Assembly: GCA_021199395.1 (NCBI GenBank)
Contig: JAJQIE010000281.1
Span: forward strand, 1-11,069
From: Lachnospiraceae bacterium
GTDB lineage: Bacteria; Bacillota; Clostridia; Lachnospirales; Lachnospiraceae
DNA: 11,069 nucleotides
Direction: 5' to 3'
Below are positions 671 to 11,004 of this stretch, in pieces. Numbering within the stretch: the first letter of the stretch is position 1; each line of letters starts with the position of its first letter. The notes below the pieces were generated by a model. It searched no databases, was not told the DNA's origin, and was given only the letters and a program-made list of their open reading frames with translations. A program made the translations under genes and the position numbers.

Positions 671-745
671 GCTGCCCAAACGTGAAGCGTTTTTCTCATT
701 GGCAGCGCGTCCTGCCGCCGTGCTCATGCGAGGGGGTGCTTCCAT
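671..745 (-). repeat. Family A 75-bp repeat, intergenic copy 1
   Basis: This is a near-complete copy of the repeat also found at 8486, 9055, 9133 and 10761. Read on the minus strand it starts ATGGAAGCACCC and ends with a nested hairpin: an outer GCGCTGCC/GGCAGC stem around an inner AAACGCTTCACGTTT-like arm pair. It lies between the mscL terminator and the inverted-repeat element at 790-953, in a gap of more than 300 bases (588-949). I see nothing else in that gap apart from 44 unremarkable bases at 746-789. It is outside any credible gene, although the minus-strand frame that codes in other copies is also open here. Confidence 0.9.
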
Positions 746-789
746 ACGGCGCACCTGCCCGATTGCACATGAACTTAGGAGACGGCACA

Positions 790-953
790 CTAGTACATCG
801 AATAATTAATAACTGGCTATATTGCGCCGAATGATTTTTCATGTACAAGGCGGAGGAAGGAGGCGTAGCGGTGGCTACGTCGACTGACAACAACGCAGCA
901 CATGGAAAATCAGACAAACAATATGGCTAGTTAATTAATATTCGATGTACTAG
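790..953. repeat. Inverted-repeat (MITE-like) element, 164 bp
   Basis: The 35-nt ends at 790-824 and 919-953 are inverted repeats of each other, with about 30 of 35 positions matching and some mismatches allowing G-U pairs. Both ends start CTAGTACATCGAATA. Inside, further partly paired segments follow (GATTTTTCATGTAC near 832-845 against GCACATGGAAAATC near 898-911), and the centre contains a GTAGC..GCTAC hairpin (868-880). There is no coding capacity. It lies between the convergent mscL and J-domain genes and could act as a two-way transcription terminator, which is inference. Similar GGCGGAGGAAGG-containing intergenic sequences are, from memory, common in Lachnospiraceae. No clear target-site duplication is visible. 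Confidence 0.85.
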
Positions 954-1690
954 CAACACATAATCGGCACACCCATCCACATTCCGCCGCCACCTCCGCA
1001 GCAGCAGCTGCAGATCAGCCAGGTCAGGCAGAGTCTCGTGCAATAGCTTCCCCCCTGGGACATCGGGTTGCCATATTCCTCTCCCATCGTCTGATACCAG
1101 TGGCCTCCGCCCTCCATCTCCTGAAGGAGCTGACGGTACTGCAGATTGTTCGGCTCCATCTGAACTGCCTTTTGTGCATGGTCAAGGGCAAGAACATTAT
1201 TCCCCCGCCCTGAATTTGCAAGCGCGCTTAAATAGTACCAGCGCGCGGTACGGTTTGTAATGCCGTTAAGGACATTGATCGCCTCATCATAATGCTGACT
1301 GCGAATATAGTTCTCCGCGGCGCGCAGATGCGGATCCTCGTTTGCGGAGGAACCGGCGCTGCTGCCCTGACTGCTGCCATAACCTCCAAAACCTCCGTAA
1401 CCGCCATAGCCACCGTAACCGCCATAACCGCTGCGACCCCCGCCTGACGATGTAGATGAAGAGTGGCCGCTCTGCTTTGCTTCGTAGCTGCCGGTACCAT
1501 GTTCCTTATCGTACATAATCTGCTGATACGCCTGCTGTACTTCCTTGAACTTCTCCTCCGCCTCCGCCTTGTTCGGATTATTGATGTTCGCATCCGGATG
1601 ATACTTCCGACTAAGCCTGCGGTATGCCTTTTTTACTTCTTCTTCGGAAGCGTCCCTCGATACCCCCAAAACCTCATATGGATTTTTCAT
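950..1690 (-). CDS. J-domain (DnaJ-like) protein with Gly/Tyr-rich linker, TPR-like region and Cys-rich tail
   Basis: This 246-residue protein has an N-terminal J domain (about 1-62), the module that stimulates Hsp70/DnaK ATPase, with the essential HPD triad at 31-33. A Ser/Gly/Tyr linker (about 74-116) contains repeated GYG units. Next comes a helical region (about 118-190) resembling tetratricopeptide repeats ([24 protein letters not shown]). The tail (217-246) is unusual: seven or more cysteines around a run of glycines. It is not classical DnaJ, since it lacks the CxxCxGxG zinc region and the substrate-binding C-terminal domains. The start at 1690 is chosen over an in-frame GTG at 1720 because GGAGGAG lies just before it. 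It is the last gene of the three-gene operon, 42 bases after the DUF5685 stop. Its TAG stop (950-952) is formed by the edge of the inverted-repeat element. Confidence 0.9.
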
Positions 1691-1710
1691 ATTCTCCTCC
1701 AATGCTTTCC

Positions 1711-1753
1711 GCCCGGACACGAGGCGTTTCTCTCATCGGTGACGCGTTCCGTC
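1711..1753 (-). repeat. Degenerate partial copy of family A
   Basis: The segment GACACGAGGCGTTTCTCTCA continues into TCGGTGACGCGTTCC. It aligns to the first half of family A (AAACGCGAAGCGTTTCTCTCATTGGCAGCGCGTCC) with scattered substitutions. It spans the end of the DUF5685 gene and its spacer to the J-domain gene. The DUF5685 TGA (1733-1735) lies in the part equivalent to the repeat's CAATGAGAG. Confidence 0.65.
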
Positions 1754-2710
1754 CTTTTCTCTCTTTCGCCCGGCTTTTTCCTGCAGTGCCGAGTATTTAC
1801 ACCAGACTCCGGAATACAGAATGTTCCGGATGATCGGCTCATACTGCAGCACAGGCAGACGTTCAAACGCCCGCGAAGCCTCCGTCATCATCCCGATCAG
1901 AATCCTCTGAATCTCATCTTTATCTGGATTCTCCCAGATGTCTCCGGTTCCAAAAGCATCTTTTCCCACACTCTCTTTTACAGTTTCTTCCCCGGACGCT
2001 CCGGATGCCGTTTCCTGCGATCTCTCATTTTGCAGCATTGCAGAAAACACATTATAGTTCCCCCGCTTTTTATCCTTTTCAATATCTTCTACCGCATCCA
2101 TCAGATAAATAAATTTTCCAAGGTAAAAACCGATCTGTCTTAAATCATCCTGCCAGATATCATCCTTCCAGACAAACAGCTCCGCCAGAAAATTGCCGGT
2201 CAGTCCAGACACATAATCAATATCCGTACCTCTGCCTGACAGGACTGCTCCGTCCCGCCATGCCGTCTCCACCTCATGCAGCAGGCGGATATTCTCCTCA
2301 ACTGCCTTCGCCTGCCGCGGGTAAGCCGTCGCGATTTTGTCATAAGCAGATTTCAGCAGAGACGCCATCACACACCCGGTCGGCTTGCGCTCATCCTCCC
2401 AGTCATCCAGGCTCTTCTGATAAGCGAGCAGTACGCACATATCCGCAGCGTAGGCAATTGCGTCATTGCACACCATCGGATGCCTGTGCACCGGATGGAC
2501 GATACAGCGCTTCTCCTCCGTCAGCGTCTCCGGCTCATACAGTCCGGTCAGCAGAACAGCCAGAAAGGTCGTATCATAATTCAGCACCATCTGCGCTCTC
2601 CTGCCATAGCGATGATGAAGCTCCTGGCACAGTCCGCAATAGAAGCTGCGATATTCTGTATATTCCCTCAGCTTCAGCTCCTGCTCATTCACATATATAT
2701 ATCCAAACAT
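1733..2710 (-). CDS. DUF5685 family protein
   Basis: This 325-residue protein matches, by my recognition, the DUF5685 family of uncharacterised Firmicutes proteins. The N-terminus has the expected FGYI..NxxELK pattern followed by a CGLC pair (C25, C28). A second Cys/His cluster lies at 69-81 (C69, H72, H75, H77, C81), so metal binding is plausible. Helical segments carry two acidic motifs, DDWED (102-106) and DAVED followed by KRGNYN (205-220). These resemble the paired aspartate-rich motifs of squalene/phytoene-synthase-type isoprenoid enzymes; that resemblance is inference, not a functional assignment. A Ser/Gly/Glu-rich linker covers about 230-262. The last residues appear to read into a decayed family A repeat. 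The gene begins 5 bases after the stop of the zinc-ribbon gene with only a weak ribosome binding site, suggesting translational coupling. Confidence 0.85.
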   Translation of the reverse strand: MFGYIYVNEQELKLREYTEYRSFYCGLCQELHHRYGRRAQMVLNYDTTFLAVLLTGLYEPETLTEEKRCIVHPVHRHPMVCNDAIAYAADMCVLLAYQKSLDDWEDERKPTGCVMASLLKSAYDKIATAYPRQAKAVEENIRLLHEVETAWRDGAVLSGRGTDIDYVSGLTGNFLAELFVWKDDIWQDDLRQIGFYLGKFIYLMDAVEDIEKDKKRGNYNVFSAMLQNERSQETASGASGEETVKESVGKDAFGTGDIWENPDKDEIQRILIGMMTEASRAFERLPVLQYEPIIRNILYSGVWCKYSALQEKAGRKREKDGTRHR

Positions 2711-2715
2711 AGCGC

Positions 2716-3120
2716 TCAGCTCTTTTTCTGAAACTCATTATGGCATTTTGGACAGGTGATGCAGATTTTCCCTTTTCCGCGCGGGATACGTATTTTCTGA
2801 CCGCAGGAAGGGCACTTATAAATATGGTACTCCTTCGACTGCGAAGCGCGTCTTCCGACCCTGCGGAAGCGATCCTTAATATTCTGCACAAAATCCAGAT
2901 ACTTCTCGTTCTCCTCGCCGCGCTTCATATAATTCCGTGAAAACATCCGATAATAGCTCAGAACCAATATCGCCAGCGCAACCAGATAAATCAGCGGCTG
3001 GCTGGTAAACAGGTTCACGACCAGCAGCACTAGGCACACCGCCAGCATAAACCTGGAAAGATCATCCGTACCGTATCTCCCGGACATAAAATCCTCAAAC
3101 CTTCTCCTAATTTTATCCAT
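2716..3120 (-). CDS. Small two-helix membrane protein with C-terminal zinc ribbon
   Basis: This 134-residue protein has a basic N-terminus, two adjacent membrane helices (about 22-38 and 42-57), a charged linker rich in Arg and Lys, and a C-terminal zinc ribbon with CPSC at 103-106 and CPKC at 123-126 (plus C120). The ribbon lies beyond a positively charged stretch (residues 82-97, RFRRVGRR), so it is probably cytoplasmic. I do not know a function for it. It is the first gene of an operon with the DUF5685 and J-domain genes; a membrane zinc-ribbon protein next to a J-domain partner suggests a role in protein handling at the membrane, which is only inference. The start follows an AGGCGG ribosome binding site, and a good promoter lies about 50 bases upstream. 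Confidence 0.85.
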   Translation of the reverse strand: MDKIRRRFEDFMSGRYGTDDLSRFMLAVCLVLLVVNLFTSQPLIYLVALAILVLSYYRMFSRNYMKRGEENEKYLDFVQNIKDRFRRVGRRASQSKEYHIYKCPSCGQKIRIPRGKGKICITCPKCHNEFQKKS

Positions 3121-3168
3121 TTTATCCGCCTCGCATTTCTAAAATACATCCTTTAAAATCTGTTAGAA

Positions 3169-3197
3169 ACTTTACCCCCAATTCAAAGGAATGTCAA
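3169..3197 (-). promoter_or_regulatory. Sigma-A type promoter of the zinc-ribbon/DUF5685/J-domain operon
   Basis: On the minus strand a perfect -35 TTGACA (3192-3197) is separated by 17 bases from TAAAGT (3169-3174), a 4-of-6 match to TATAAT. Transcription would start near 3162, giving a leader of about 42 nt before the ATG at 3120. It is the best-looking promoter for the minus-strand genes of this window. Confidence 0.7.
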
Positions 3198-3257
3198 CGG
3201 ATGCAGGCTTAATTTCACAGAAATTTTAGACATATCCGGAAGTTTCGTTACATTACA

Positions 3258-3354
3258 CAGCGTTTCTCTATTGGCAACGCGGCCTGCCCTCGCCGAGTGG
3301 CATCCTCGTCCTTAGGACGGGATATTCGTCGAGCGTATGAGAGGGGCGTTTCCG
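3258..3354 (-). repeat. Family A copy carrying an inserted or expanded hairpin
   Basis: The segment at 3258-3288 matches the first half of family A (AGCGTTTCTC, TTGGCAACGCG, CCTGCC). The segment at 3336-3354 matches its last part (ATGAGAGGGGCGTTTCC). Between them, where other copies have only CGCCGAGCTC, there is a hairpin module of about 47 bases that is also present inverted at 6511-6556. It lies in the 3' flank of the histidine kinase gene. Confidence 0.7.
3286..3332 (+). repeat. Family B hairpin module, copy 1
   Basis: It begins GCCCTCGCCGAGTGGCATCC and closes GGGATATTCGTCGAGCG. The centre folds as ATCC, CGTCC, loop TTA, GGACG, GGAT with one bulged base. The same flanks with a different but still complementary inner stem occur on the opposite strand at 6511-6556. 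Confidence 0.75.
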
Positions 3355-3389
3355 CAGCGTTTCTCTTCTTCATGCGATGGGCGTTTCCG
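3355..3389 (-). repeat. Internally deleted family A copy forming the end of the histidine kinase gene
   Basis: CAGCGTTTCTCTTC is joined directly to TTCATGCGATGGGCGTTTCC. Compared with the family consensus, the middle (TTGGCAGCGCG to CGAGC) is missing and one base of the CCCCCTCGC run is lost. The kinase reads into it as T-E-T-P in place of the usual M-E-A-P. It then shifts frame because of the lost base and stops at the TGA within CGCATGAAG. Confidence 0.7.
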
Positions 3390-5688
3390 TAGCTGCCGGA
3401 AAACACAGCTTTGCCATAAACAGATCCTTCTGCACCAACACCTCAAAGCTCCCTTCCAGCAGTTCCGTCAGGTTCTTCGCGATCGAAAGCCCCAGGCCGC
3501 TGCCCTCGCTGCTCCGGCTTGCATCTCCTCTCACAAAGCGGCCGGTCAGCTCATCCGCTTTCACCGTAATCGGATCATCAGATACATTCTGGAGGATTAT
3601 CAGGATTTCCTCCTCGCGCCTCAGTATGACGCAGACCTCCGTATTCTCTTTTGCGTATTTACAGATATTGCCAAGCAGATTTTCCAGGATGCGCCAGAGC
3701 TGACGGCCATCCGCCATAATATACAGCGGCTCCCTTTCCATCTGCCAGGAGAGCTGCAACCCACGCTCCTTCAGCCGCTCCTCAAATTCTCCGCACGCCT
3801 GCATCAGTATGCTCTGCACCTGTATGCGCGTAATCTCAAGCTCGATGTTTCCGGAGCTGATCTTGCTCGCCTCTACCAGATCCTCTGTGAGCTGCTTCAG
3901 GCGCTGCGATTTCTGATCCAGTATTTCAACATACCCACGCGCCCGCTCATTTTGCAGATCCTCTCTTTTCAGCAGATCGACGTAATTCACGATCGAGGTG
4001 AGCGGTGTCTTCAGATCGTGAGATACGTTTGTGATCAGCTCCGCCTTCAGGCGCTCATTTTTCACAATCGCCTCCAGGGCGTCGCAAAGGCTGTCTCCCA
4101 TTTCATTGACCGCTTCCGCCATCTTTCGGGATTCTCCGGGAAGCGCGGACGCGTCTATCCGGTATTTCAGATCGCCCTGGGAAATCTGATGAATGCCCTC
4201 GTAGATGTTCTGTTTTCCCGCCATATCCCGCATCAGATACAGCAGCACCGCCATATCCAGCAGTACGACCAGTACCAGTCCGCTACGCCCAAACAAAAGC
4301 AAAAACAGAAAATTCAGGACAAAAAAACCAACATAGAGAAGAATCAGCTGACCGGAAGCCGCCCGCGAGGAATTGACCTGCCGCCAGGTCCATATCAGAG
4401 TGCGGGTAACAGAATTTGTCCACAGAGTTTTTGCACGAAGCCTCCTCACAAATCCCAGGCATGCGGATAAAAATACAAGCCATGCGGATGCAACTACAAT
4501 CGCAGCCTGGTATTTTTCCTGTCCGGGAAGGATCTGCGTCATCTGTCTCCACCTGGACGCAGCCAGCAGATACAGGATCGCCGCGATCAGGCATATCCCT
4601 GCGGCGAGCTCTGTCGGAATCAGATCCACCGGAAGAAGCTCCGACGCCGTACCGTCTTCCTTTCGACCCGCGCCAGCCAGCGAGCAGACAAAGCAAAACA
4701 ACAGTATCACCAGGCAAACGGCCGCTCCGGCTCCCGCTCTCCAGATAATCGTCTCCCGCTGTGCGTAATAATCCGACCAGGTCTGCAGCTCATCACTCAC
4801 CGGATAGGAGGTGTTTACGGCCAGATAGACTTTTTCATTTGTCCCTGCGAACCTTTCCTGAAGGAACCACTCCGAGGCCTCCGCATTCAGCACCCGCTCC
4901 GGGTTCGTCACCATAATATTGAAGCTGCGTTCTCCTTCATACAGGCTGGTATACTCGTCGTCCGCTTCCGCAGCGGCAACCGCCTCTTCATAGGTATCCT
5001 GACCCGTATTGGTATAAAGCTCCCCCGTGGAAGTATTTTCAATACAGTAAAGCAGGTTCGACGGTGCCTGGGCGGACCAGCTCTCATCCTGCATCGTCGA
5101 ATACTCTGCATATCGCTCATAGAGATCCGCTACCGCTTCATCAAGCTTTGTATACATTTCTACCACATATCCGGCGGAATCGGAATACCACCGTGAGCAT
5201 TCCGCCAGCGTGATCCCGGTCACAGGAGTAATCGTCTCCAGAGTCTCCGAATGCTCGTCCAGCCACTCGCCCGCATCCCCTGTACCGTCCGCGGACGCCT
5301 CCTCTATCGCGTCATGCAGAACCTGCCAGCCCCCATTTTCATAAAAATCCAGCAGATCCCCCAAAAGGTAGGTGGTGTTCATATCCCGGACAGTATTTCC
5401 CACGCTGTCATAGGACTGGATATCAATCTGTTTGTCCCGGTCGAATTCGCCATCCGTCTCCAGCAGCCGCGCGTTATCCTGTCCGCGGATTTTATTGGAA
5501 AGCACGGTGTCCACCTGCCGGAAAAACAATTCAGACTCTTCATAGCTCTGCGACAGCTCGCCAAAGCTGTAGGAATCCTCCATCCAGAAGCTGATGCTCA
5601 CCAGACAAAGCGCAATGGCTCCGGCCGCAGCCGCCTGAAGCAGTACCAGCAATATTTTTATCTGCTTTTTATAAATCAGTCGTCTCAC
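3370..5688 (-). CDS. Membrane sensor histidine kinase (HisKA/HATPase type)
   Basis: This 772-residue two-component sensor kinase is partner to the response regulator whose gene it overlaps. It has an N-terminal membrane helix (about 12-34), an extracytoplasmic region (35-312) with no domain I recognise, and then a block of hydrophobic helices (about 313-338, 358-378, 394-414, 446-466, 468-487). A HAMP-like linker follows (about 494-545). The dimerisation domain has the H-box NVSHDLKTPLTS with phospho-acceptor H557. The ATPase domain has an N-box (LENLLGN, 668-674), an F-box-like RFVRGD (717-722) and a G2 box GSGLGL (729-734). The expected DxGxG G1 box is replaced by NVSDDPI (701-707). It starts with GTG at 5688, overlapping the regulator stop by four bases (GTGA) and preceded by GGAG. 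The C-terminal TETPIA comes from a family A repeat remnant. The stimulus is unknown. Confidence 0.93.
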   Translation of the reverse strand: MRRLIYKKQIKILLVLLQAAAAGAIALCLVSISFWMEDSYSFGELSQSYEESELFFRQVDTVLSNKIRGQDNARLLETDGEFDRDKQIDIQSYDSVGNTVRDMNTTYLLGDLLDFYENGGWQVLHDAIEEASADGTGDAGEWLDEHSETLETITPVTGITLAECSRWYSDSAGYVVEMYTKLDEAVADLYERYAEYSTMQDESWSAQAPSNLLYCIENTSTGELYTNTGQDTYEEAVAAAEADDEYTSLYEGERSFNIMVTNPERVLNAEASEWFLQERFAGTNEKVYLAVNTSYPVSDELQTWSDYYAQRETIIWRAGAGAAVCLVILLFCFVCSLAGAGRKEDGTASELLPVDLIPTELAAGICLIAAILYLLAASRWRQMTQILPGQEKYQAAIVVASAWLVFLSACLGFVRRLRAKTLWTNSVTRTLIWTWRQVNSSRAASGQLILLYVGFFVLNFLFLLLFGRSGLVLVVLLDMAVLLYLMRDMAGKQNIYEGIHQISQGDLKYRIDASALPGESRKMAEAVNEMGDSLCDALEAIVKNERLKAELITNVSHDLKTPLTSIVNYVDLLKREDLQNERARGYVEILDQKSQRLKQLTEDLVEASKISSGNIELEITRIQVQSILMQACGEFEERLKERGLQLSWQMEREPLYIMADGRQLWRILENLLGNICKYAKENTEVCVILRREEEILIILQNVSDDPITVKADELTGRFVRGDASRSSEGSGLGLSIAKNLTELLEGSFEVLVQKDLFMAKLCFPAATETPIA

Positions 5689-6383
5689 TGAATATTCTCC
5701 ACTTTGTAGCCGATCCCCCAGATCACCTTGAGATATTTCGGATTCTTCGGGTCAATCTCAATCTTCTCCCGGATATGGCGGATATGTACCGTCACGGTAT
5801 TGTCCGCGCCAAAAGCCTCTTCTTTCCAGATGGCCTCGTATATCTGATCGATCGAGAATACCTTACCCTTATTCTTTACCAGAAACAGCAGAATATTGTA
5901 TTCAATCCTGGTCAGCTTCACCGGCTCGCCGTCTACCGTGACTTCCTTACGGTCGTCATTGATCCTGAGCCCGCCGGTAGTATAGACAAGCTCAGAGTTC
6001 TCCGGCTCCGCCGCGCCAAAATTCGTATAGCGCCTGATCTGAGACTTCACACGCGCAATCAGCTCCAGCGGATTGAACGGCTTCGCCACATAATCGTCCG
6101 CCCCCAGGTTCAGCCCCAGCACCTTATCCGTATCCTGTGTCTTCGCAGAGAGGATGATGATCGGAATACTGCTCTTTTCGCGTATTTTCATGATCGCGTG
6201 AAGGCCGTCCATCTTAGGCATCATCAGATCCAGAATCAGCAGATGGATCTCCTGCTGCTGCAAAATCGCAAGTGCCTGCTCTCCATCATATGCCCTGAAT
6301 ACCTGAAAGCCTTCCTGTACCAGATAAATTTCAATCGCGTCCACGATCTCCTTCTCGTCATCGCATACCAGAATATTGTACAT
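5685..6383 (-). CDS. OmpR-family response regulator (receiver plus winged-helix DNA-binding domain)
   Basis: This 232-residue transcription regulator is activated by phosphoryl transfer from its histidine kinase. The receiver domain (about 1-115) has the acidic pair D8/D9, phospho-acceptor D52 in LILDLMMPKMDG, S79 in LSA, and K101 in KPF. A short linker (about 117-128) leads to a Trans_Reg_C winged helix (about 129-229) with the typical LTRIEYNILLFLVKNKGKVFS and TVTVHIRHIREKIE segments and a final VIWGIGYK. Length and layout are normal for the VanR/PhoB-like group. GGAGAG lies shortly before the ATG. The gene is first in a two-gene operon with the kinase (4-base overlap). Target genes cannot be read from this window. 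Confidence 0.95.
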   Translation of the reverse strand: MYNILVCDDEKEIVDAIEIYLVQEGFQVFRAYDGEQALAILQQQEIHLLILDLMMPKMDGLHAIMKIREKSSIPIIILSAKTQDTDKVLGLNLGADDYVAKPFNPLELIARVKSQIRRYTNFGAAEPENSELVYTTGGLRINDDRKEVTVDGEPVKLTRIEYNILLFLVKNKGKVFSIDQIYEAIWKEEAFGADNTVTVHIRHIREKIEIDPKNPKYLKVIWGIGYKVENIQ

Positions 6384-6401
6384 ACTGTCTCTCCTTTCCC
6401 T

Positions 6402-6422
6402 GTCTTATCCACCGTCTTATCC
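6402..6422 (-). promoter_or_regulatory. Two direct repeats GGATAAGAC upstream of the response regulator
   Basis: On the minus strand GGATAAGAC occurs at 6414-6422 and again at 6402-6410, a 12-base period, 19-39 bases before the regulator start codon. OmpR-type regulators usually bind direct repeats about 10-11 bases apart, so autoregulation is possible but the spacing is slightly long. No clear promoter fixes where transcription starts. Confidence 0.25.
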
Positions 6423-6430
6423 TCTATATT

Positions 6431-6462
6431 TAATGATTCGAGCGACAAAAGGGTATGATACT
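6431..6462 (+). repeat. Family C motif, copy 1
   Basis: TAATGATTCGAGCGACAAAA followed by GGGTATGATAC matches, in inverted orientation, the segment at 10972-11004 with only a few substitutions. Here it forms the left part of the composite element and lies just upstream of the response regulator. Confidence 0.7.
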
Positions 6463-6510
6463 GCGGATTGCTGCCTGCTTCGCACTCTCGCATCTCCGCT
6501 GCCGCTTAGG

Positions 6511-6556
6511 CCGGCGAATATCCCGCACGAAGTGTGGGATGCCACCCGGCGAGGGC
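6511..6556 (-). repeat. Family B hairpin module, copy 2 (inverted)
   Basis: On the minus strand it reads GCCCTCGCCGGGTGGCATCC, then a stem CAC-TTC-GTG, then GGGATATTCGCCGG. The flanks match copy 1 at 3286-3332, but the inner stem sequence differs while keeping complementarity. Confidence 0.75.
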
Positions 6557-6608
6557 TAAACGGACATCCACTGGATGTCCCTTGTATCATTTAATATAGA
6601 AGAAACAA

Positions 6609-6666
6609 AACCGGCTTCCGCACCGGAAATACACATAACTTTACTCCAGTTTAACAGAAGCCGGTT
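6609..6666 (-). terminator. Rho-independent terminator of pyruvate kinase
   Basis: On the minus strand AACCGGCTTC (6657-6666) and GAAGCCGGTT (6609-6618) are perfect 10-base arms around a 38-nt loop, followed by TTGTTTCTTCT. It begins 42 bases after the pyruvate kinase stop. The loop is long, but arm length and T-rich tail fit a terminator. Confidence 0.8.
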
Positions 6667-6707
6667 AAATTCATATCAATAATTCATTAAGGTTTTCTTA
6701 TAAATCG

Positions 6708-8147
6708 TCATTTTGCCTCGATAACGTGCATCATATTGGTCATGGCTCCCTTTCCCCTGACAATATTCGTCGCGGGATCGCCCGCCGTGAGCACCACCAT
6801 ATCGCCCGGCTTTACATACCCGTCCCGTTTTACAATATACATCGCGTGAGAAATAATATGCTCCGTCGTATCCTCCGCGTAGCCCTGCAGCGGTGTCACG
6901 CCCCAGTATATTTGCATTTTCCGGAGCGCCCATGCATTGGGGGAAATCGCGTAAATCGGAATCGAGGTGCGGAAATTCGACATCAGGCGCGCCGTCTGGC
7001 CGCTCATGGTCGGAGTGACAATGCAGTCCGCCTGAACATTCACAGCGGTCCGGATCGCAGCCAGGCCTACAGCGCTGGATACATTGGCGTCCCCGCGCAG
7101 TCCGTGATATTCCTGTATCTGGGAATCATTTACATTGTAGCCTTCCGTAGTCTCCGCTATCTGCGTCATCATTTTCAGCGCCTCCAGCGGATATTTCCCC
7201 GCGGCAGTCTCTCCGGAAAGCATGATCGCGTCGGCACCTTCCCGGATCGCGTTCGCCACATCCGTCACCTCCGCTCTGGTGGGGCGTGGATTGCGGATCA
7301 TGGAATCCAGCATCTGTGTAGCAATAATAACAGGCTTGTACCTCTTATTGCATTTCCGGACAATAAGGCGCTGCACATGGGGCACCTCATAGGCCGGGAT
7401 TTCTACGCCCATATCGCCGCGCGCAACCATAACGCCGTCCGCAGCCTGGATAATGCGATCAATATTCTGGATCCCCTCGGCATTTTCAATCTTCGCAATC
7501 ACATCAATATGCTCTCCGCCGTTTTCCTTCAGAAGCTTTTTAATTTCTTTAATAGCGTCCGCGTCGCGCACAAAGGAAGCGGCGATAAAGTCAATGCCTT
7601 CCTGTATGCCAAAAAGAATATCCTCGCGGTCTTTTTCCGTAATACCGGGCAGATTGACCCTGACATTCGGAACATTCACGCCCTTGCGCTGTCCGAGAGT
7701 ACCGCCGTTTTCCACCCTACAGACTATATCTGTTCCATTTATTTCCTTTACCTTCAGCCCGATCAGGCCGTCGTCGATCAGAATCGTATCTCCCGGTTTT
7801 ACATCCTGGGAAAGCTGAGCATACGTCTGGCTGACTCTTTTTGCGTCTCCTTCTATCGTATCAGAAGTCAGTGTAAACTCCGCCCCGGTCTGAAGCGTCA
7901 CCGGTTCTCCGTCCTTCAGCATTCCGGTACGGATCTCCGGCCCCTTTGTATCCAGAAGAATAGCGATCGGCTTTTTCATCTCCTCCCGGACGCTTTTGAG
8001 CAGATCAAAGCGCGCTCTCTGCTCCTCATGTGTGCCGTGTGAAAAGTTAAAACGCGCGATGTCCATTCCGTTTTGAACCAGCGCTTTCATAACCTCCCGG
8101 TCATCTGTCGCCGGTCCCATTGTACAGATAATTTTTGTTTTTTTCAT
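6708..8147 (-). CDS. pyk: Pyruvate kinase
   Basis: This 479-residue enzyme catalyses the last step of glycolysis, phosphoenolpyruvate plus ADP to pyruvate plus ATP, in the cytoplasm, normally as a tetramer. The N-terminal part has the TMGPAT motif and RFNFSHGTHEEQ (32-43). The B domain lies at about 70-168. The signature IAKIENAEG (217-225) carries catalytic K219 and metal ligand E221, and ARGDMG (242-247) carries metal ligand D245. The segment ATQMLDSMIRNPRPTRAE (276-293) and LSGETAAG (310-317) are intact. The C-terminal allosteric domain covers about 345-479. It lacks the extra PEP-utiliser-like domain found at the C-terminus of many Bacillus and clostridial enzymes, so it is the short form. 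GGAGGG lies just upstream of the ATG. It is transcribed alone, with its own terminator and a hairpin-rich region upstream. Confidence 0.98.
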   Translation of the reverse strand: MKKTKIICTMGPATDDREVMKALVQNGMDIARFNFSHGTHEEQRARFDLLKSVREEMKKPIAILLDTKGPEIRTGMLKDGEPVTLQTGAEFTLTSDTIEGDAKRVSQTYAQLSQDVKPGDTILIDDGLIGLKVKEINGTDIVCRVENGGTLGQRKGVNVPNVRVNLPGITEKDREDILFGIQEGIDFIAASFVRDADAIKEIKKLLKENGGEHIDVIAKIENAEGIQNIDRIIQAADGVMVARGDMGVEIPAYEVPHVQRLIVRKCNKRYKPVIIATQMLDSMIRNPRPTRAEVTDVANAIREGADAIMLSGETAAGKYPLEALKMMTQIAETTEGYNVNDSQIQEYHGLRGDANVSSAVGLAAIRTAVNVQADCIVTPTMSGQTARLMSNFRTSIPIYAISPNAWALRKMQIYWGVTPLQGYAEDTTEHIISHAMYIVKRDGYVKPGDMVVLTAGDPATNIVRGKGAMTNMMHVIEAK

Positions 8148-8172
8148 TTCGATTTCCCTCCGGAATTCTGTT

Positions 8173-8201
8173 GTTTTAATCTACTGTAAAAGCATCCTCA
8201 A
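8173..8201 (-). promoter_or_regulatory. Possible promoter of pyruvate kinase
   Basis: On the minus strand TTGAGG (8196-8201) lies 17 bases before TAAAAC (8173-8178); both are 4-of-6 matches to the sigma-A consensus. The leader would be under 20 nt. The -35 overlaps the base of the hairpin at 8194-8253. It is the only reasonable candidate close to the gene, but it is weak. Confidence 0.3.
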
Positions 8202-8450
8202 TGGACAGACTCGTGACATGCTTGCATGTCTAAGTGGCTGTCCATTAGAGGATCAAACCGGTATGAGCAAGCAAGGCGGTGCTGAGCGCCAGTGGCGCTC
8301 GTTTAGCACCGACCGAAGCGGAGCGGAGAAGCACGGATTGCGGTGCCGGGCGCCAGTGACGCCCGTTTGGCGCCGACCGGAGCGAAGCGTAGATATCGGT
8401 GGTGATTGCGAGAGTTCCAAAGGAACGAAGCAATCAGCTTTTACATGTAG
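8181..8450. repeat. Hairpin cluster enclosed by a closing inverted repeat, upstream of pyruvate kinase
   Basis: CTACTGTAAAAGC (8181-8193) and GCTTTTACATGTAG (8437-8450) are inverted repeats with one extra base, enclosing about 240 bases. Inside are a long hairpin (8194-8253) with arms ATCCTCAATGGACAG/CTGTCCATTAGAGGAT and an inner perfect GACATGC/GCATGTC stem; two tandem hairpins with a 64-base period (8276-8393); and a hairpin with GATTGC/GCAATC and GTTCC/GGAAC stems (8404-8435). No credible gene lies in the 432 bases from 8148 to 8579. This could be a mobile palindromic cluster or a large structured RNA. Confidence 0.7.
8276..8393. repeat. Two tandem hairpin repeats, 64-base period
   Basis: Units at 8276-8329 and 8340-8393 share GCGGTGC, GCGCCAGTG, GCGCCGACC-like blocks and a trailing GGAGCG/GAGCGAAGCG segment. 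Unit 1 folds through GGTGCT/AGCACC and GAGCGCC/GGCGCTC. In unit 2 an A-T pair becomes G-C in the inner stem and a T-A pair becomes C-G in the outer stem, so both helices are kept. Confidence 0.8.
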
Positions 8451-8485
8451 CGGTGCAGCCGGCTATACCTGTAAGGATCATTAGC

Positions 8486-8560
8486 GCTGCCCAAACGCGA
8501 AGCGTTTCTCTCATTGGCAGCGAGTCCTGCCGCCGAGCTCATGCGAGGGGGCGTTTCCAC
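8486..8560 (-). repeat. Family A 75-bp repeat, intergenic copy
   Basis: A near-perfect copy (GCTGCCCAAACGCGAAGCG to GAGGGGGCGTTTCCAC), placed just downstream of the sigma-like gene, whose last stop codon is at 8580. The inner hairpin AAACGC-TTC-GCGTTT is perfect in this copy. It sits between the sigma-like gene and the hairpin cluster upstream of pyruvate kinase. Confidence 0.9.
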
Positions 8561-8579
8561 TTTTCCGGCGTCCGCGTCG

Positions 8580-8795
8580 TCATGCTTCCGTCTCTATCTG
8601 GTCGCCGGTCACCCTGAGGAGACTTTCAATCTCCTCCACAGGCATCTCCAGATAGGCGGAAACCTCCTCCGCGGAAACCTTATGCCCCAGATCCCTTTCC
8701 AGATTGTGAACCGCTTCATTCAGATGATTTACCCTGCTCAGAAGCCCGCTATTCATCCGCATACTTTCCTGCCCGCTGCTCACAGCCTTTTCCAT
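8580..8795 (-). pseudogene. C-terminal part of the frameshifted sigma-70-like gene
   Basis: This 71-codon frame has its own ATG at 8795 but reads as the continuation of the upstream sigma-like protein. The segment from about residue 26 onward (LNEAVHNLERDLGHKVSAEEVSAYLEMPVEEIESLLRVTG) fits sigma region 3, where a helix pair of the type ELGxxPTxEEVAxxLxM is normal. It overlaps the upstream frame by 47 bases in another phase, and a stop codon blocks extension beyond about 8812, so continuation needs a +1 (or -2) shift within about 8749-8812. Sigma region 4 (the -35 binding helix) is absent: the frame ends at TGDQIETEA. No good ribosome binding site precedes 8795, though overlap-coupled restarting cannot be excluded. 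It may be a true mutation, a sequencing error or a coupled gene. Confidence 0.6.
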
Positions 8796-9477
8796 CGTCC
8801 CGTATGGTGTTTAAAATATGGGCGCTGCAGGCAGCGACGCTCTCAAATTCTCTCAGTGACTCCACCGCGATGAGCAGCCCCATATTTCCCTCCTGAATCA
8901 GATCCTCAGAAGGCAGGGCATCCTCTCCGTATTCCTCCGCCATCTCGCAGATCAGGGGGAGATAAAGCTCTATCAGCTTCCCTCTGGCGTCCGCGTCGCC
9001 GTTCTTCGCGCACTCAATCAGCCGAATTTCCTTCTCATTATCCGCATCAGAATCATCGCCCAGACGCGAAGCGTTTCTTTCATTGGCAGCGCGTTCTGCC
9101 GCCGAGCTCTTGCGAGGGGGCGCCTCCATAGCGTTGCCTAAACGCGAAGCGCTTCTTTCATTGGCAACGCGTCCTGCCGCCGAGCTCTTGCGAGGGGGCG
9201 CTTCCATAAGCGCAGACACCTCATCCACATAAAGTGAAAGACTTCGCCGTTCTTCCGTAGAAAAGGGGGCTTCCATCTCCGTTGCCTGCTCTTTTGATTC
9301 TACCACACGAATATTCTGTTCCGCAAGATAATCATAGATTAACTGAAACTGATTTTCCTCAAGCGGAATATTTTTCAAAATATCACGGATCTGCGGCTTC
9401 GTCAGAAATCCGTTGCTTTGGTCGGCGACCTCCTTCATCTCTGTCAGAAGTGCCCGGAATACAATTCTGTTTTCCAT
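8749..9477 (-). CDS. Sigma-70-like protein, N-terminal part, carrying two in-frame family A peptides
   Basis: This 242-codon frame begins with a region like RpoD region 1.1 (residues about 20-60, FLTKPQIRDIL ... YDYLAEQNIRVV), then a short region 1.2-like segment (SLSLYVDEVSAL, 80-90). It continues with IRLIECAKNGDADARGKLIELYL and PSEDLIQEGNMGLLIAVESL (151-208), the hallmark of sigma region 2. Between them, residues 91-116 and 117-142 are two tandem 26-residue copies of the family A peptide. The aromatic-rich promoter-melting part of region 2 is not conserved, and region 4 is missing from the downstream part too, so normal sigma activity is doubtful. From about residue 228 the reading departs from the family and soon stops, while the next phase carries region 3; the gene is probably frameshifted. 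GGAGG lies 10 bases before the ATG. It follows the protease gene by 50 bases. Confidence 0.75.
   Translation of the reverse strand: MENRIVFRALLTEMKEVADQSNGFLTKPQIRDILKNIPLEENQFQLIYDYLAEQNIRVVESKEQATEMEAPFSTEERRSLSLYVDEVSALMEAPPRKSSAAGRVANERSASRLGNAMEAPPRKSSAAERAANERNASRLGDDSDADNEKEIRLIECAKNGDADARGKLIELYLPLICEMAEEYGEDALPSEDLIQEGNMGLLIAVESLREFESVAACSAHILNTIRDDGKGCEQRAGKYADE
9055..9129 (-). repeat. Family A repeat inside the sigma-like gene, second coding copy
   Basis: This copy encodes MEAPPRKSSAAERAANER followed by NASRLG in the sigma-like reading frame (residues 117-140). It is separated from the copy at 9133-9207 by three bases, giving an exact 78-base, 26-codon period. It carries CTTGCGAG where the intergenic copies have CATGCGAG. 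Confidence 0.9.
9133..9207 (-). repeat. Family A repeat inside the sigma-like gene, first coding copy
   Basis: This copy encodes MEAPPRKSSAAGRVANER followed by SASRLG (residues 91-114). The outer stem has changed from GCTGCC to GTTGCC at one end and from GGCAGC to GGCAAC at the other, a paired change that keeps the stem. Confidence 0.9.
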
Positions 9478-9527
9478 CTCTGCTTATCCTCCAAACATCT
9501 GGTTTTCCAAAATTTTATCATCCTCCG

Positions 9528-10940
9528 TCAGTCCGACAGCTCCAGAAGGGCACGCGCCAGGATGGGATCATCCGTACTTTGCGTATCCTCGCTTTCTTCT
9601 ACGATTATATCCGGCGTAATCCCGTTTCCGTCTATCTCCTGGCCGTTCGGAGTGTAATAATGCTCTACCGTAAGCTTAAAAGCCGATCCGTCCGACAGCG
9701 AGTAGGTTTTCTGCACAACTCCTTTCCCATAGGTCTGTGTGCCAATGATCGGCCCCAGTCCATAGTCCTGAACCGCGCCGGCAAATATTTCTGACGCGCT
9801 CGCGGAGCCGCCATTCACCAGCACCGCCACTTCACAGGTCACACTCCTCTCATCGTCCGCCGAATATTCCTCACGTCCGCCGTTTTTGTCCTCTGTGTAT
9901 ACGATCAGCCCTTCCGGCAGTATCTCATCCAGGATGTCGCAGACAGAGGTAAGCAGGCCGCCCGGATTATCTCGCAGATCTACAATCAGCTTTTTCATCC
10001 CCTGGCTGTTCAAATCTTCAACCGCATCTCGGAACTGTTCCACCGCGCTTTCGGTAAATTCAGTCAGCCGCAGATAACCGATGCCGTCTTCCGGCATCTC
10101 ATACGTCACATAGTCAGGAACGATGTCGCTGCACGTAATCGTAAGCTCCAGCTCCTCCTCTGTATCCGGGCGATAAACCGTCATGGTAAAGGTATCCATT
10201 GACTTAATCAGGGATACAAGCTCTGTCTGGCTGAGCTCCTCTACGGATTCCCCGTCCAGCGCACGGACAATATCCTTTGCCAGAAGGCCTCCCTCCTCTG
10301 CCGGGCTGCCCTCATATACCTCTCCTACATAAAACTCGCCGGTCTCGCTGTCTGTGCCGATCGTTGCGCCGATCCCGTAATACTCTCCCTTTGTAGAGTC
10401 CACTACAGACGACAGCTCCTCCGCAGTATAATAGCTCGCGTACGCGTCATCCAGTCCGGCTGCTACTCCTTTGAAAAGATATGCTTCCAGAAGCTCTCCG
10501 TCTACCTCTTCCAGATAGTTTTCCTCAATAATTTCCTGTATCTGCGCGAGCTTTGACAGAGTGCTGCTGCTCGTAAGAACCTCCGCGCCCGGATTCCCGC
10601 GCCCTGTCAGATTTCGAATCACCCTCGGTGCCAGAACAACCAGAAACATACTCAGAAAGACCAGCACCGCGCCTAATAGCAAGCCATTGATAAAGCGTCT
10701 CTGGCTGCGTTTTTCCAGAGCCTCGATCAGAAGCTCCTGCTCTCTGGCATTTTCTTCAGCGCTGCCCAAACACGAAGCGTTTCTTTCATTGGCAGCGCGT
10801 CCTGCCGCCGAGCTCACGCGAGAGGGTGCTTCCATCGTGACATTCTCTTCTGTAGCATTCCCTTCTGTGACATTTTCATTTGCCGCATCCGCCTCCGGGA
10901 TGCCTTCTTTCGGGATTCCGTCTTCCGGCAGGCAAATCAT
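9528..10940 (-). CDS. S41-family C-terminal processing peptidase (CtpA/Prc-like), membrane-anchored, with family A peptide in its cytoplasmic tail
   Basis: This 470-residue serine protease belongs to the tail-specific or C-terminal processing family, which cleaves extracytoplasmic proteins near their C-termini. A cytoplasmic N-terminus (1-82) precedes one membrane helix (about 83-105), so the catalytic part faces outward. A PDZ domain covers about 180-265 (YYGIGATIG, GSPAEEGGLLAKDIVRALDG). The protease domain (about 280-450) has DLRDNPGGLL (321-330), the catalytic serine in GGSASASEIFAGA (S381 by comparison with Prc spacing) and the catalytic lysine in GTQTYGKG (K406). Residues 36-60 are an in-frame family A repeat. 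The N-terminal 1-35 is acidic with repeated N-V/A-T-E units. GGAAGG lies ten bases before the chosen ATG. The sigma-like gene follows 50 bases downstream. The substrate is unknown. Confidence 0.94.
   Translation of the reverse strand: MICLPEDGIPKEGIPEADAANENVTEGNATEENVTMEAPSRVSSAAGRAANERNASCLGSAEENAREQELLIEALEKRSQRRFINGLLLGAVLVFLSMFLVVLAPRVIRNLTGRGNPGAEVLTSSSTLSKLAQIQEIIEENYLEEVDGELLEAYLFKGVAAGLDDAYASYYTAEELSSVVDSTKGEYYGIGATIGTDSETGEFYVGEVYEGSPAEEGGLLAKDIVRALDGESVEELSQTELVSLIKSMDTFTMTVYRPDTEEELELTITCSDIVPDYVTYEMPEDGIGYLRLTEFTESAVEQFRDAVEDLNSQGMKKLIVDLRDNPGGLLTSVCDILDEILPEGLIVYTEDKNGGREEYSADDERSVTCEVAVLVNGGSASASEIFAGAVQDYGLGPIIGTQTYGKGVVQKTYSLSDGSAFKLTVEHYYTPNGQEIDGNGITPDIIVEESEDTQSTDDPILARALLELSD
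10761..10835 (-). repeat. Family A repeat inside the S41 protease gene
   Basis: A near-complete copy read in the same frame as in the sigma-like gene. It gives MEAPSRVSSAAGRAANER followed by NASCLGS, residues 36-60 of the protease, between an acidic tail and the charged segment before the membrane helix. The insertion keeps the reading frame open. Confidence 0.9.
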
Positions 10941-10971: not shown

Positions 10972-11004
10972 GTATCATATCCTTTTGTCGTTTAAATCAT
11001 AATG
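10972..11004 (-). repeat. Family C motif, copy 2
   Basis: GTATCATATCCTTTTGTCG followed by TTTAAATCATAATGA is the reverse complement of the motif at 6431-6462, with a few substitutions. It sits about 32 bases upstream of the protease start codon and may be the end of a larger element cut by the window edge. Confidence 0.65.

Follow-up and report, generated by a model that had tools for sequence, protein, structure and literature searches.

A GA-cis-related palindromic repeat that probably behaves as a coding element in one clade of Lachnospiraceae

A short palindromic repeat recurs in the window studied here, which is the entire 11,069-nt contig JAJQIE010000281.1 (C279 in our numbering) of a 2.28-Mb, 71.6% complete metagenome-assembled genome (MAG) of a Lachnospiraceae bacterium. 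Some copies are located between genes, others within them. What is this repeat: a piece of old protein sequence, a local duplication, a structured RNA, or an element that spreads and is tolerated in proteins? With a probability of roughly 0.8, we consider it a non-autonomous palindromic coding repeat that acts like the Rickettsia palindromic elements (RPE) without being one of them, and that has multiplied in one clade of a Lachnospiraceae genus.

Copies in the window, in the genome and in related genomes

A preliminary description of the window had reported five near-complete copies in a single orientation, three of them inside genes, in one shared frame and in two unrelated proteins. All of this was borne out. 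The copies are found at 671-746, 8485-8561, 9055-9130, 9132-9209 and 10760-10836, and the peptide strand is the minus strand in each case. The first is flanked by mscL and the dnaJ-like gene, which are convergent; the second has the 5' end of the pyruvate kinase gene on one side and, on the other, the 3' end of a gene for a sigma-70-like protein, both genes being on the minus strand. The sigma-like gene (8749-9477, minus strand) harbours a tandem pair with a spacing of 78 bp, consisting of copy 1 at 9132-9209 (MEAPPRKSSAAGRVANERSASRLGN) and copy 2 at 9055-9130 (MEAPPRKSSAAERAANERNASRLGD), which together form a 52-residue insert flanked by regions 1.1 and 2. The fifth copy (MEAPSRVSSAAGRAANERNASCLGS) belongs to the N-terminal tail of a PDZ/S41 peptidase (gene at 9528-10940, minus strand).

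On the plus strand of the window, opposite to the peptide, the copies match the Rfam family RF02987, GA-cis RNA, whose name suggests that it was put forward as a cis-regulatory RNA. One of the five, the copy at 8485-8561 (match at 8479-8562, 45.1 bits), passes the gathering score of 34.7 bits. The copy at 671-746 stays slightly below it (664-747, 34.1 bits), and the in-gene copies at 9132-9209, 10760-10836 and 9055-9130 reach 33.0, 30.2 and 28.8 bits, respectively. The earlier statement that no equivalent had been described in Lachnospiraceae thus needs correction as far as the sequence is concerned, which was already in Rfam. As to the coding aspect, in the literature searched on Lachnospiraceae elements, RPE-type repeats and GA-cis, a scope that left out most subscription papers, no title or abstract among those listed describes the repeat as a coding element. 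The sole mention of GA-cis found there is its name in a table of structure updates, in the part of the Rfam 15 paper that was available.

Is the repeat confined to this locus? In the MAG, blastn with one copy gave 60 matches (best non-self E value 2.7e-25), which are spread over the window and 24 further contigs; a profile search of those 25 contigs gave 81 matches at E 0.01. The repeat is genome-wide, and hence the reservation made earlier, that it might be a local duplication, falls away, even if the tandem copies 78 bp apart are what a duplication would leave. Nor is it ancestral protein sequence: none of 21 orthologues of the sigma-like protein and none of 21 orthologues of the S41 peptidase has the peptide, both sets being taken from the same genus, with more distant matches excluded. 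In the former, the double insert is a clean alignment gap (e.g. YVDELASL^SEIND in G010); in the latter, it is situated in a variable N-terminal tail that is unaligned in two of the orthologues. Taken together, local duplication or ancestral sequence is hardly conceivable as an explanation.

Empty counterparts were also found at the DNA level. At nine distinct sites, related genomes lack an insert of 75-81 bp, and at five of the nine the insert measures 78 bp, i.e. 26 codons (for one of the five, the insert has 81 bp in an orthologous row). The nine sites were obtained from 32 candidates, of which 12 contractions within element arrays and four ragged cases (L160, L169, L059, L070) were dropped, as was the pair L126 and L094, in which the subject carries a relic of the element; the 15 remaining rows were then merged (L147 with L062; L141 with L056:349; L098 with L099; L083:379 with L084, L143 and L163). 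L109 and L083 are reciprocal, each having a copy that is missing from the other, the second with poorer flanks. The junctions are ambiguous by 0-4 nt and no constant target duplication was seen; since the flanks match at only 36-48 of 50 bases, the ends are approximate at the poorer sites.

Among the proteins that host copies are MurF, DNA polymerase III alpha, Lon, ApgM, a RelA/SpoT-domain protein, UvrD- and DEAD-type helicases, a DnaB_2 protein, an FGGY kinase and an EF-G-like GTPase fused to a NYN domain. MurF was followed through the genus. An orthologue is present in 46 of 47 genomes (G030 gave only a distant Mur ligase match), two of them shortened by contig ends; full copies occur in three genomes, one of which (G035) also has a partial copy, and three have fragments only. 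In the high-copy clade described below, several predicted MurF proteins (L332-L343) contain long low-complexity insertions of other sequence and reach up to 615 residues, compared to about 456.

How far does the repeat extend? Among 60 relatives, counted from the best 59 scored candidates per genome, RF02987 is present in 16, all of them from the 36 genomes that represent the genus (with the MAG itself counted), and in none of the 24 from other families; the highest number of matches per genome was 54. A family-wide survey, based on the best 10 candidates per genome, found it in 31 of 397 genomes and in 28 of 334 genera. In a MurF tree (a quick FastTree run of 45 genomes, printed with no support values and excluding G030 with its 48 matches), all 11 counted genomes with at least eight matches and a usable MurF fall inside one clade of 16. 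The counted clade genomes have 8-54 matches and the counted genomes placed outside it 0-3; five clade genomes (G456-G460 except those counted) are outside the GA-cis count. Among the placed genomes, high copy number is confined to this one clade. Carriage by phages or plasmids was considered and rejected, at the sensitivity used: viral contigs had no exact match to the core of the repeat, and plasmids and phages no blastn match with one 84-base copy.

Orientation and reading frame inside genes

Copies in genes are predominantly in one orientation. Collapsing 158 copies by orthology left 111 loci, of which 59 are sense, 7 antisense, 38 intergenic, 5 at gene edges and 2 at contig ends (sense bias, p 2e-11); this and the other p values of the set are optimistic because tandem copies are not independent. 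The loci of the own genome had been gathered by similarity to the copy at 8484-8561, and the named loci by the exact core pattern, with four-base loops in the P2 hairpin described below, among the matches listed, so that the set is biased to the four-base-loop subfamily. Named loci were assigned to the genus from their record series, some of which were tied to genus genomes by sequence. Since this sample was chosen by similarity, a census was taken of all GA-cis matches at any location in three good assemblies, some of these matches being under the Rfam cut-off. G013 (29 of 29 matches examined) has 14 sense, 1 antisense, 12 intergenic and 2 edge copies, G014 (37 of 41) has 19, 5, 11 and 2, and G008 (36 of 39) has 17, 7, 9 and 3. 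In total, 102 of 109 places, the remaining seven being those with no fetched DNA, gave 50 sense, 13 antisense, 32 intergenic and 7 edge copies, and the sense bias is again evident (p 3e-6).

The reading frame is biased as well. In the ortholog-collapsed set, 42 of the 54 sense copies that could be framed use one frame (p 3e-11) and the other two frames have 9 and 3 copies, with 5 copies unframed. Read in the dominant frame, the repeat gives the 26-residue peptide METPPRxxSAAGRxxxxENAARLGGA, and a similar peptide recurs across 54 host open reading frames (ORFs).

It had been proposed that the repeat can land in genes with little damage because it is open in four or five of six frames. In the five near-complete window copies, the peptide frame is indeed open and the third minus frame indeed contains a stop in every one. 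The three plus frames, however, are all open in three copies and not in the remaining two, and the second minus frame, said to be open in the CTTGCGAG copies, is open in one of these two and closed in the other. More important, openness does not account for the placement. Of 33 intergenic copies, 27 are open in the peptide frame and just as many, 27, in one frame of the opposite strand, yet antisense in-gene copies are a minority; stops alone therefore leave the sense excess unexplained. Among the six frames, the peptide frame has the lowest content of aromatic residues plus Cys (4.3%) and of bulky hydrophobic residues (13.1%). Hence, selection for a harmless peptide, or a bias of insertion, probably acts besides frame openness.

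The bias in frame and orientation and the recurrence of the peptide in so many hosts could also mean that the 26 residues are retained because they are useful, for instance as a flexible linker. But the presence of the repeat at any given site is patchy, copies are found between genes and in other frames too, and MurF holds mere fragments in some genomes. A peptide maintained for its function is therefore quite improbable. A different idea is that the copies are bypassed or removed and thus missing from the protein, in the manner of the palindromic elements that go untranslated in the mitochondria of Magnusiomyces; translationally bypassed in-gene hairpins are known, according to the accessible part of PMC6649704. 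Bypass would require neither the absence of stops in the host frame, which is a property of the in-gene copies, nor a commonest insert of exactly 26 codons, and we regard it as very improbable.

Hairpins, GA-cis RNA and a possible mechanism

The repeat folds into two recurring hairpins. P1 consists of an outer stem that varies between copies and, inside it, a GCGAAGC-type hairpin, whereas P2 is a near-constant core, GCCGCC-GA-RC-NNNN-GY-GA-GGGGGC, whose stem alternates between GC/GC and AC/GT. In the copy at 8485-8561, P1 extends from 8485 to 8522 (outer stem 8485-8491/8516-8522, inner stem 8493-8498/8502-8507) and shows covariation across copies, and P2 from 8529 to 8552 (GCCGCC-GA-GC-TCAT-GC-GA-GGGGGC). 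Altogether, 1273 of 1318 P1 pairs are Watson-Crick pairs, with 90 distinct arm sequences (146 copies parsed out of 154 unique full copies). For the 135 copies taken as genus members, the outer seven pairs are 96.2% Watson-Crick, compared to a mean of 51.0% and a maximum of 56.1% when the arms were dealt among the copies in 500 deals. The stems vary in sequence while remaining paired. Is it the RNA or the DNA that is paired? Selection at the level of RNA should favour G-U over A-C mismatches, and the counts are 14 to 9 in P1, 4 to 3 in the inner stem and 2 to 3 in P2, in total 20 to 15 (p 0.50). G-U is not clearly above A-C, which suggests that the constraint acts mainly on DNA. When single sequences were folded as RNA, no strong signal emerged (z -2.2 to +0.8).

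These data bear on the alternative contained in the Rfam name, namely that the repeat is a structured cis-regulatory RNA acting in 5' leaders. The RF02987 matches themselves speak for it, and so does the behaviour of GA-cis outside the genus, where 88 near-full copies in 72 loci were described by a separate 91-nt model. In one leader-type locus (L128) the tandem period is 88, and GGAGG is present in the upstream part of 19 of 35 core matches in non-genus named loci versus 2 of 103 genus-assigned ones (string test). A Shine-Dalgarno-like word and an ORF of at least 60 residues within 120 nt downstream were taken as a leader test. Outside the genus, 65 of the 84 copies whose P2 end could be recognised pass it on the RNA strand (49 of them within 40 nt; a first count had given 63 of 88), whereas the opposite strand gives 3 of 84 and randomly chosen places give 200 of 1440. 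G-U exceeds A-C there by 8 to 2, which is not significant. Given the excess in the leader test, leader-type GA-cis may well be regulatory. Several leader-type loci (among them L071, L055, L100, L102, L130 and L269) have GGAGG, an ATG a few bases behind it and a short ORF within P1, an arrangement that suggests a leader peptide or translational coupling.

In the clade, the picture is different. Of 38 intergenic copies, the RNA strand passes the leader test in 4 and the peptide strand in 13. None of the five window copies is in a leader position on the RNA strand, and no Pfam-supported gene starts downstream of any of them on that strand. In the census, 63 of 102 copies are intragenic, mostly with the RNA strand antisense, and the lack of a clear G-U excess adds to this. 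As an explanation of the repeat in this clade, a cis-regulatory leader RNA is unlikely.

A number of observations weigh against a coding repeat. The balance of 20 G-U to 15 A-C is compatible with a modest RNA preference. In-gene copies in antisense fit the RNA model better than sense copies, with median GA-cis scores of 49.1 versus 43.2 bits (13 versus 50 copies, p 0.014) and, in G008 alone, 55.5 versus 44.5 bits (p 0.003). This means either that selection on the peptide has moved the sense copies away from the RNA model or that an RNA role persists for part of the antisense copies. In a hand-picked set of mostly top-scoring cases (ORF score >30, leader-type L363 excluded), ORFs lie on the RNA strand in 10 cases versus 5 others; together with the higher antisense scores, this makes an RNA role possible for some copies. 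Genes were called with a home-made codon-usage score and most assemblies are MAGs. No mobiliser was found, the Y1 transposase being absent from G013, G030 and G035, which have 26-48 matches, and neither a terminal signature nor a target duplication was seen that would fix the ends of the repeat. Finally, we infer the translation of in-gene copies from their sequence. In its counts, the G008 census agrees with those of the first two genomes; the higher antisense scores weigh slightly against the coding repeat.

Overall, the coding repeat, multiplied in one clade, is favoured. It would copy itself to new sites with the aid of a putative helper, the moving form probably being a DNA hairpin. Gene insertions would persist if their length is a whole number of codons and their frame the one with the blandest, linker-like peptide, and the 26 residues would be translated and near neutral. 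Old copies would decay into fragments and leave the proteins longer. That copying by a putative helper proceeds via DNA hairpins is the likeliest mechanism, although the odds for it are only about even. Movement is evident from its outcome, that is, from dispersed copies, empty sites, tandem arrays and one G013 copy split by another palindromic repeat. The latter is a nested insertion (L413, around 2047-2176; G013:C31:175046-175175) of a second palindromic family in the P2 hairpin of GA-cis. By eye, a G008 copy (G008:C10:163688-163809) also appears to be split in P2 by another short palindrome. A Y1 transposase was considered as mobiliser and rejected on its distribution: PF01797 is found in 25 of 47 genomes and does not track copy number.

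In other genera, the leader-type core lies in 5' leaders directly before the ribosome-binding site, close to the start codon. Because the core is shared, the coding repeat probably descends from the leader element or is its sister. A more specific history is possible, though doubtful: a leader RNA with its own ribosome-binding site would have turned into a mobile in-protein repeat by losing the Shine-Dalgarno sequence, shrinking from about 88 to 78 bp and being read mostly from the opposite strand, with arms rewritten in matched pairs by DNA-hairpin copying.

The window contains further traces of repeats. Degraded copies had been proposed at three places. Two were recovered as weak partial matches on the minus strand, at 1711-1749 between the DUF5685 and dnaJ-like genes (profile E 0.007) and at 3251-3297 downstream of a histidine kinase gene (E 5e-4); the third, at 3355, was missed by the model at E 0.01. 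By eye, the region 3251-3395 looks like a degraded GA-cis remnant interrupted by another short palindrome, as in the G008 copy mentioned above, and the end of the histidine kinase ORF, ETPIA, resembles the peptide of the repeat. The sigma-like ORF stops early and seemingly resumes in another frame (8580-8795), an apparent frameshift at 8749-8800 that is either real or an assembly error. On the plus strand, 8185-8445 matches Rfam RF01699, Clostridiales-1 RNA (76.2 bits). This region includes two tandem copies (8266-8329 and 8330-8393) of the second palindromic family, of which 19 distinct examples were seen in fetched loci and whose stem, by eye, seems to vary in matched pairs. At 790-953 there is an imperfect inverted repeat with 35-nt arms (CTAGTACATCGAATA...) that are 86% complementary and 94 nt apart, resembling a miniature inverted-repeat transposable element (MITE). 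A 29-nt inverted repeat pair at 6433-6461 and 10972-11000 (ATGATTCGAGCGACAAAAGG..., 86% complementary) is possibly another dispersed repeat.

Comparison with known systems

The published systems are compared here on the basis of those parts of the cited papers that were accessible. RPE are dispersed palindromic repeats that occur between genes and, in frame, within conserved protein genes; they are 105-146 bp in length and form long stem-loops with 12-bp terminal inverted repeats (PMC2229807), and they are described as losing their repeat identity (PMC6649704). The parallel to RPE drawn in the preliminary description is valid for in-frame coding inserts in diverse conserved genes and for the additional intergenic copies, but not for length and hairpin layout. 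With 75-81 bp at the nine empty sites, the Lachnospiraceae repeat is outside the range of RPE, and it has two separate hairpins instead of a long stem-loop with terminal inverted repeats. From these two differences we conclude that it is not a member of the RPE. Furthermore, its stems vary yet stay paired, and its hosts belong to a different phylum.

Coding palindromes in frame within housekeeping genes are described for Rickettsia, Wolbachia and Methanocaldococcus jannaschii (PMC2996958). The elements of the latter two resemble ours in their housekeeping hosts but come from unrelated organisms, and the likeness is one of description. PARCELs are also both coding and palindromic; they are, however, amphipathic repeat domains of surface lipoproteins (PMC2996958). 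ERIC, YPAL and other small repeats have open reading frames and gene fusions, too, but they are longer (about 100-200 bp) and their fusions are few (PMC2229807). Short repeated hairpins and nested insertions are shared with the palindromes of Volvox (PMC2670323), which are organellar; so are the double-hairpin elements of Allomyces, which enter here through the title of a reference in the same paper. Palindromes of mitochondrial DNA are primarily non-coding (PMC6649704).

MITEs are characterised by terminal inverted repeats and a target-site duplication; at the empty sites of our repeat, the junctions are ambiguous by 0-4 nt, no duplication is constant and the ends are approximate where the flanks are poorer. 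Repetitive extragenic palindromic (REP) sequences are linked to Y1-type transposases. In contrast to such REP-transposase (RAYT) pairs, the carriers G013, G030 and G035 are missing the Y1 transposase (PF01797). Both kinds of repeat are small and palindromic, but REPs have 20-40 bp and are extragenic (PMC3733652).

The closest relative is GA-cis itself. The repeat has the conserved P2 core and the P1 hairpin in common with RF02987, but differs in length, context and orientation from the GA-cis of other genera, which is longer, often has GGAGG in P1 and is located in 5' leaders; the clade repeat has 75-81 nt and is apparently mostly read as peptide from the opposite strand. One Rfam RNA family would thus include, in one clade, what is largely a coding repeat, and automatic annotation would be misleading there. 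Most known coding palindromes come from a small number of distant microbes; here they appear to be abundant in housekeeping genes of Lachnospiraceae such as those for MurF, DNA polymerase III alpha and Lon. Since full, decayed and absent states are found in one gene across a genus, the idea that selfish repeats lengthen proteins becomes directly testable.

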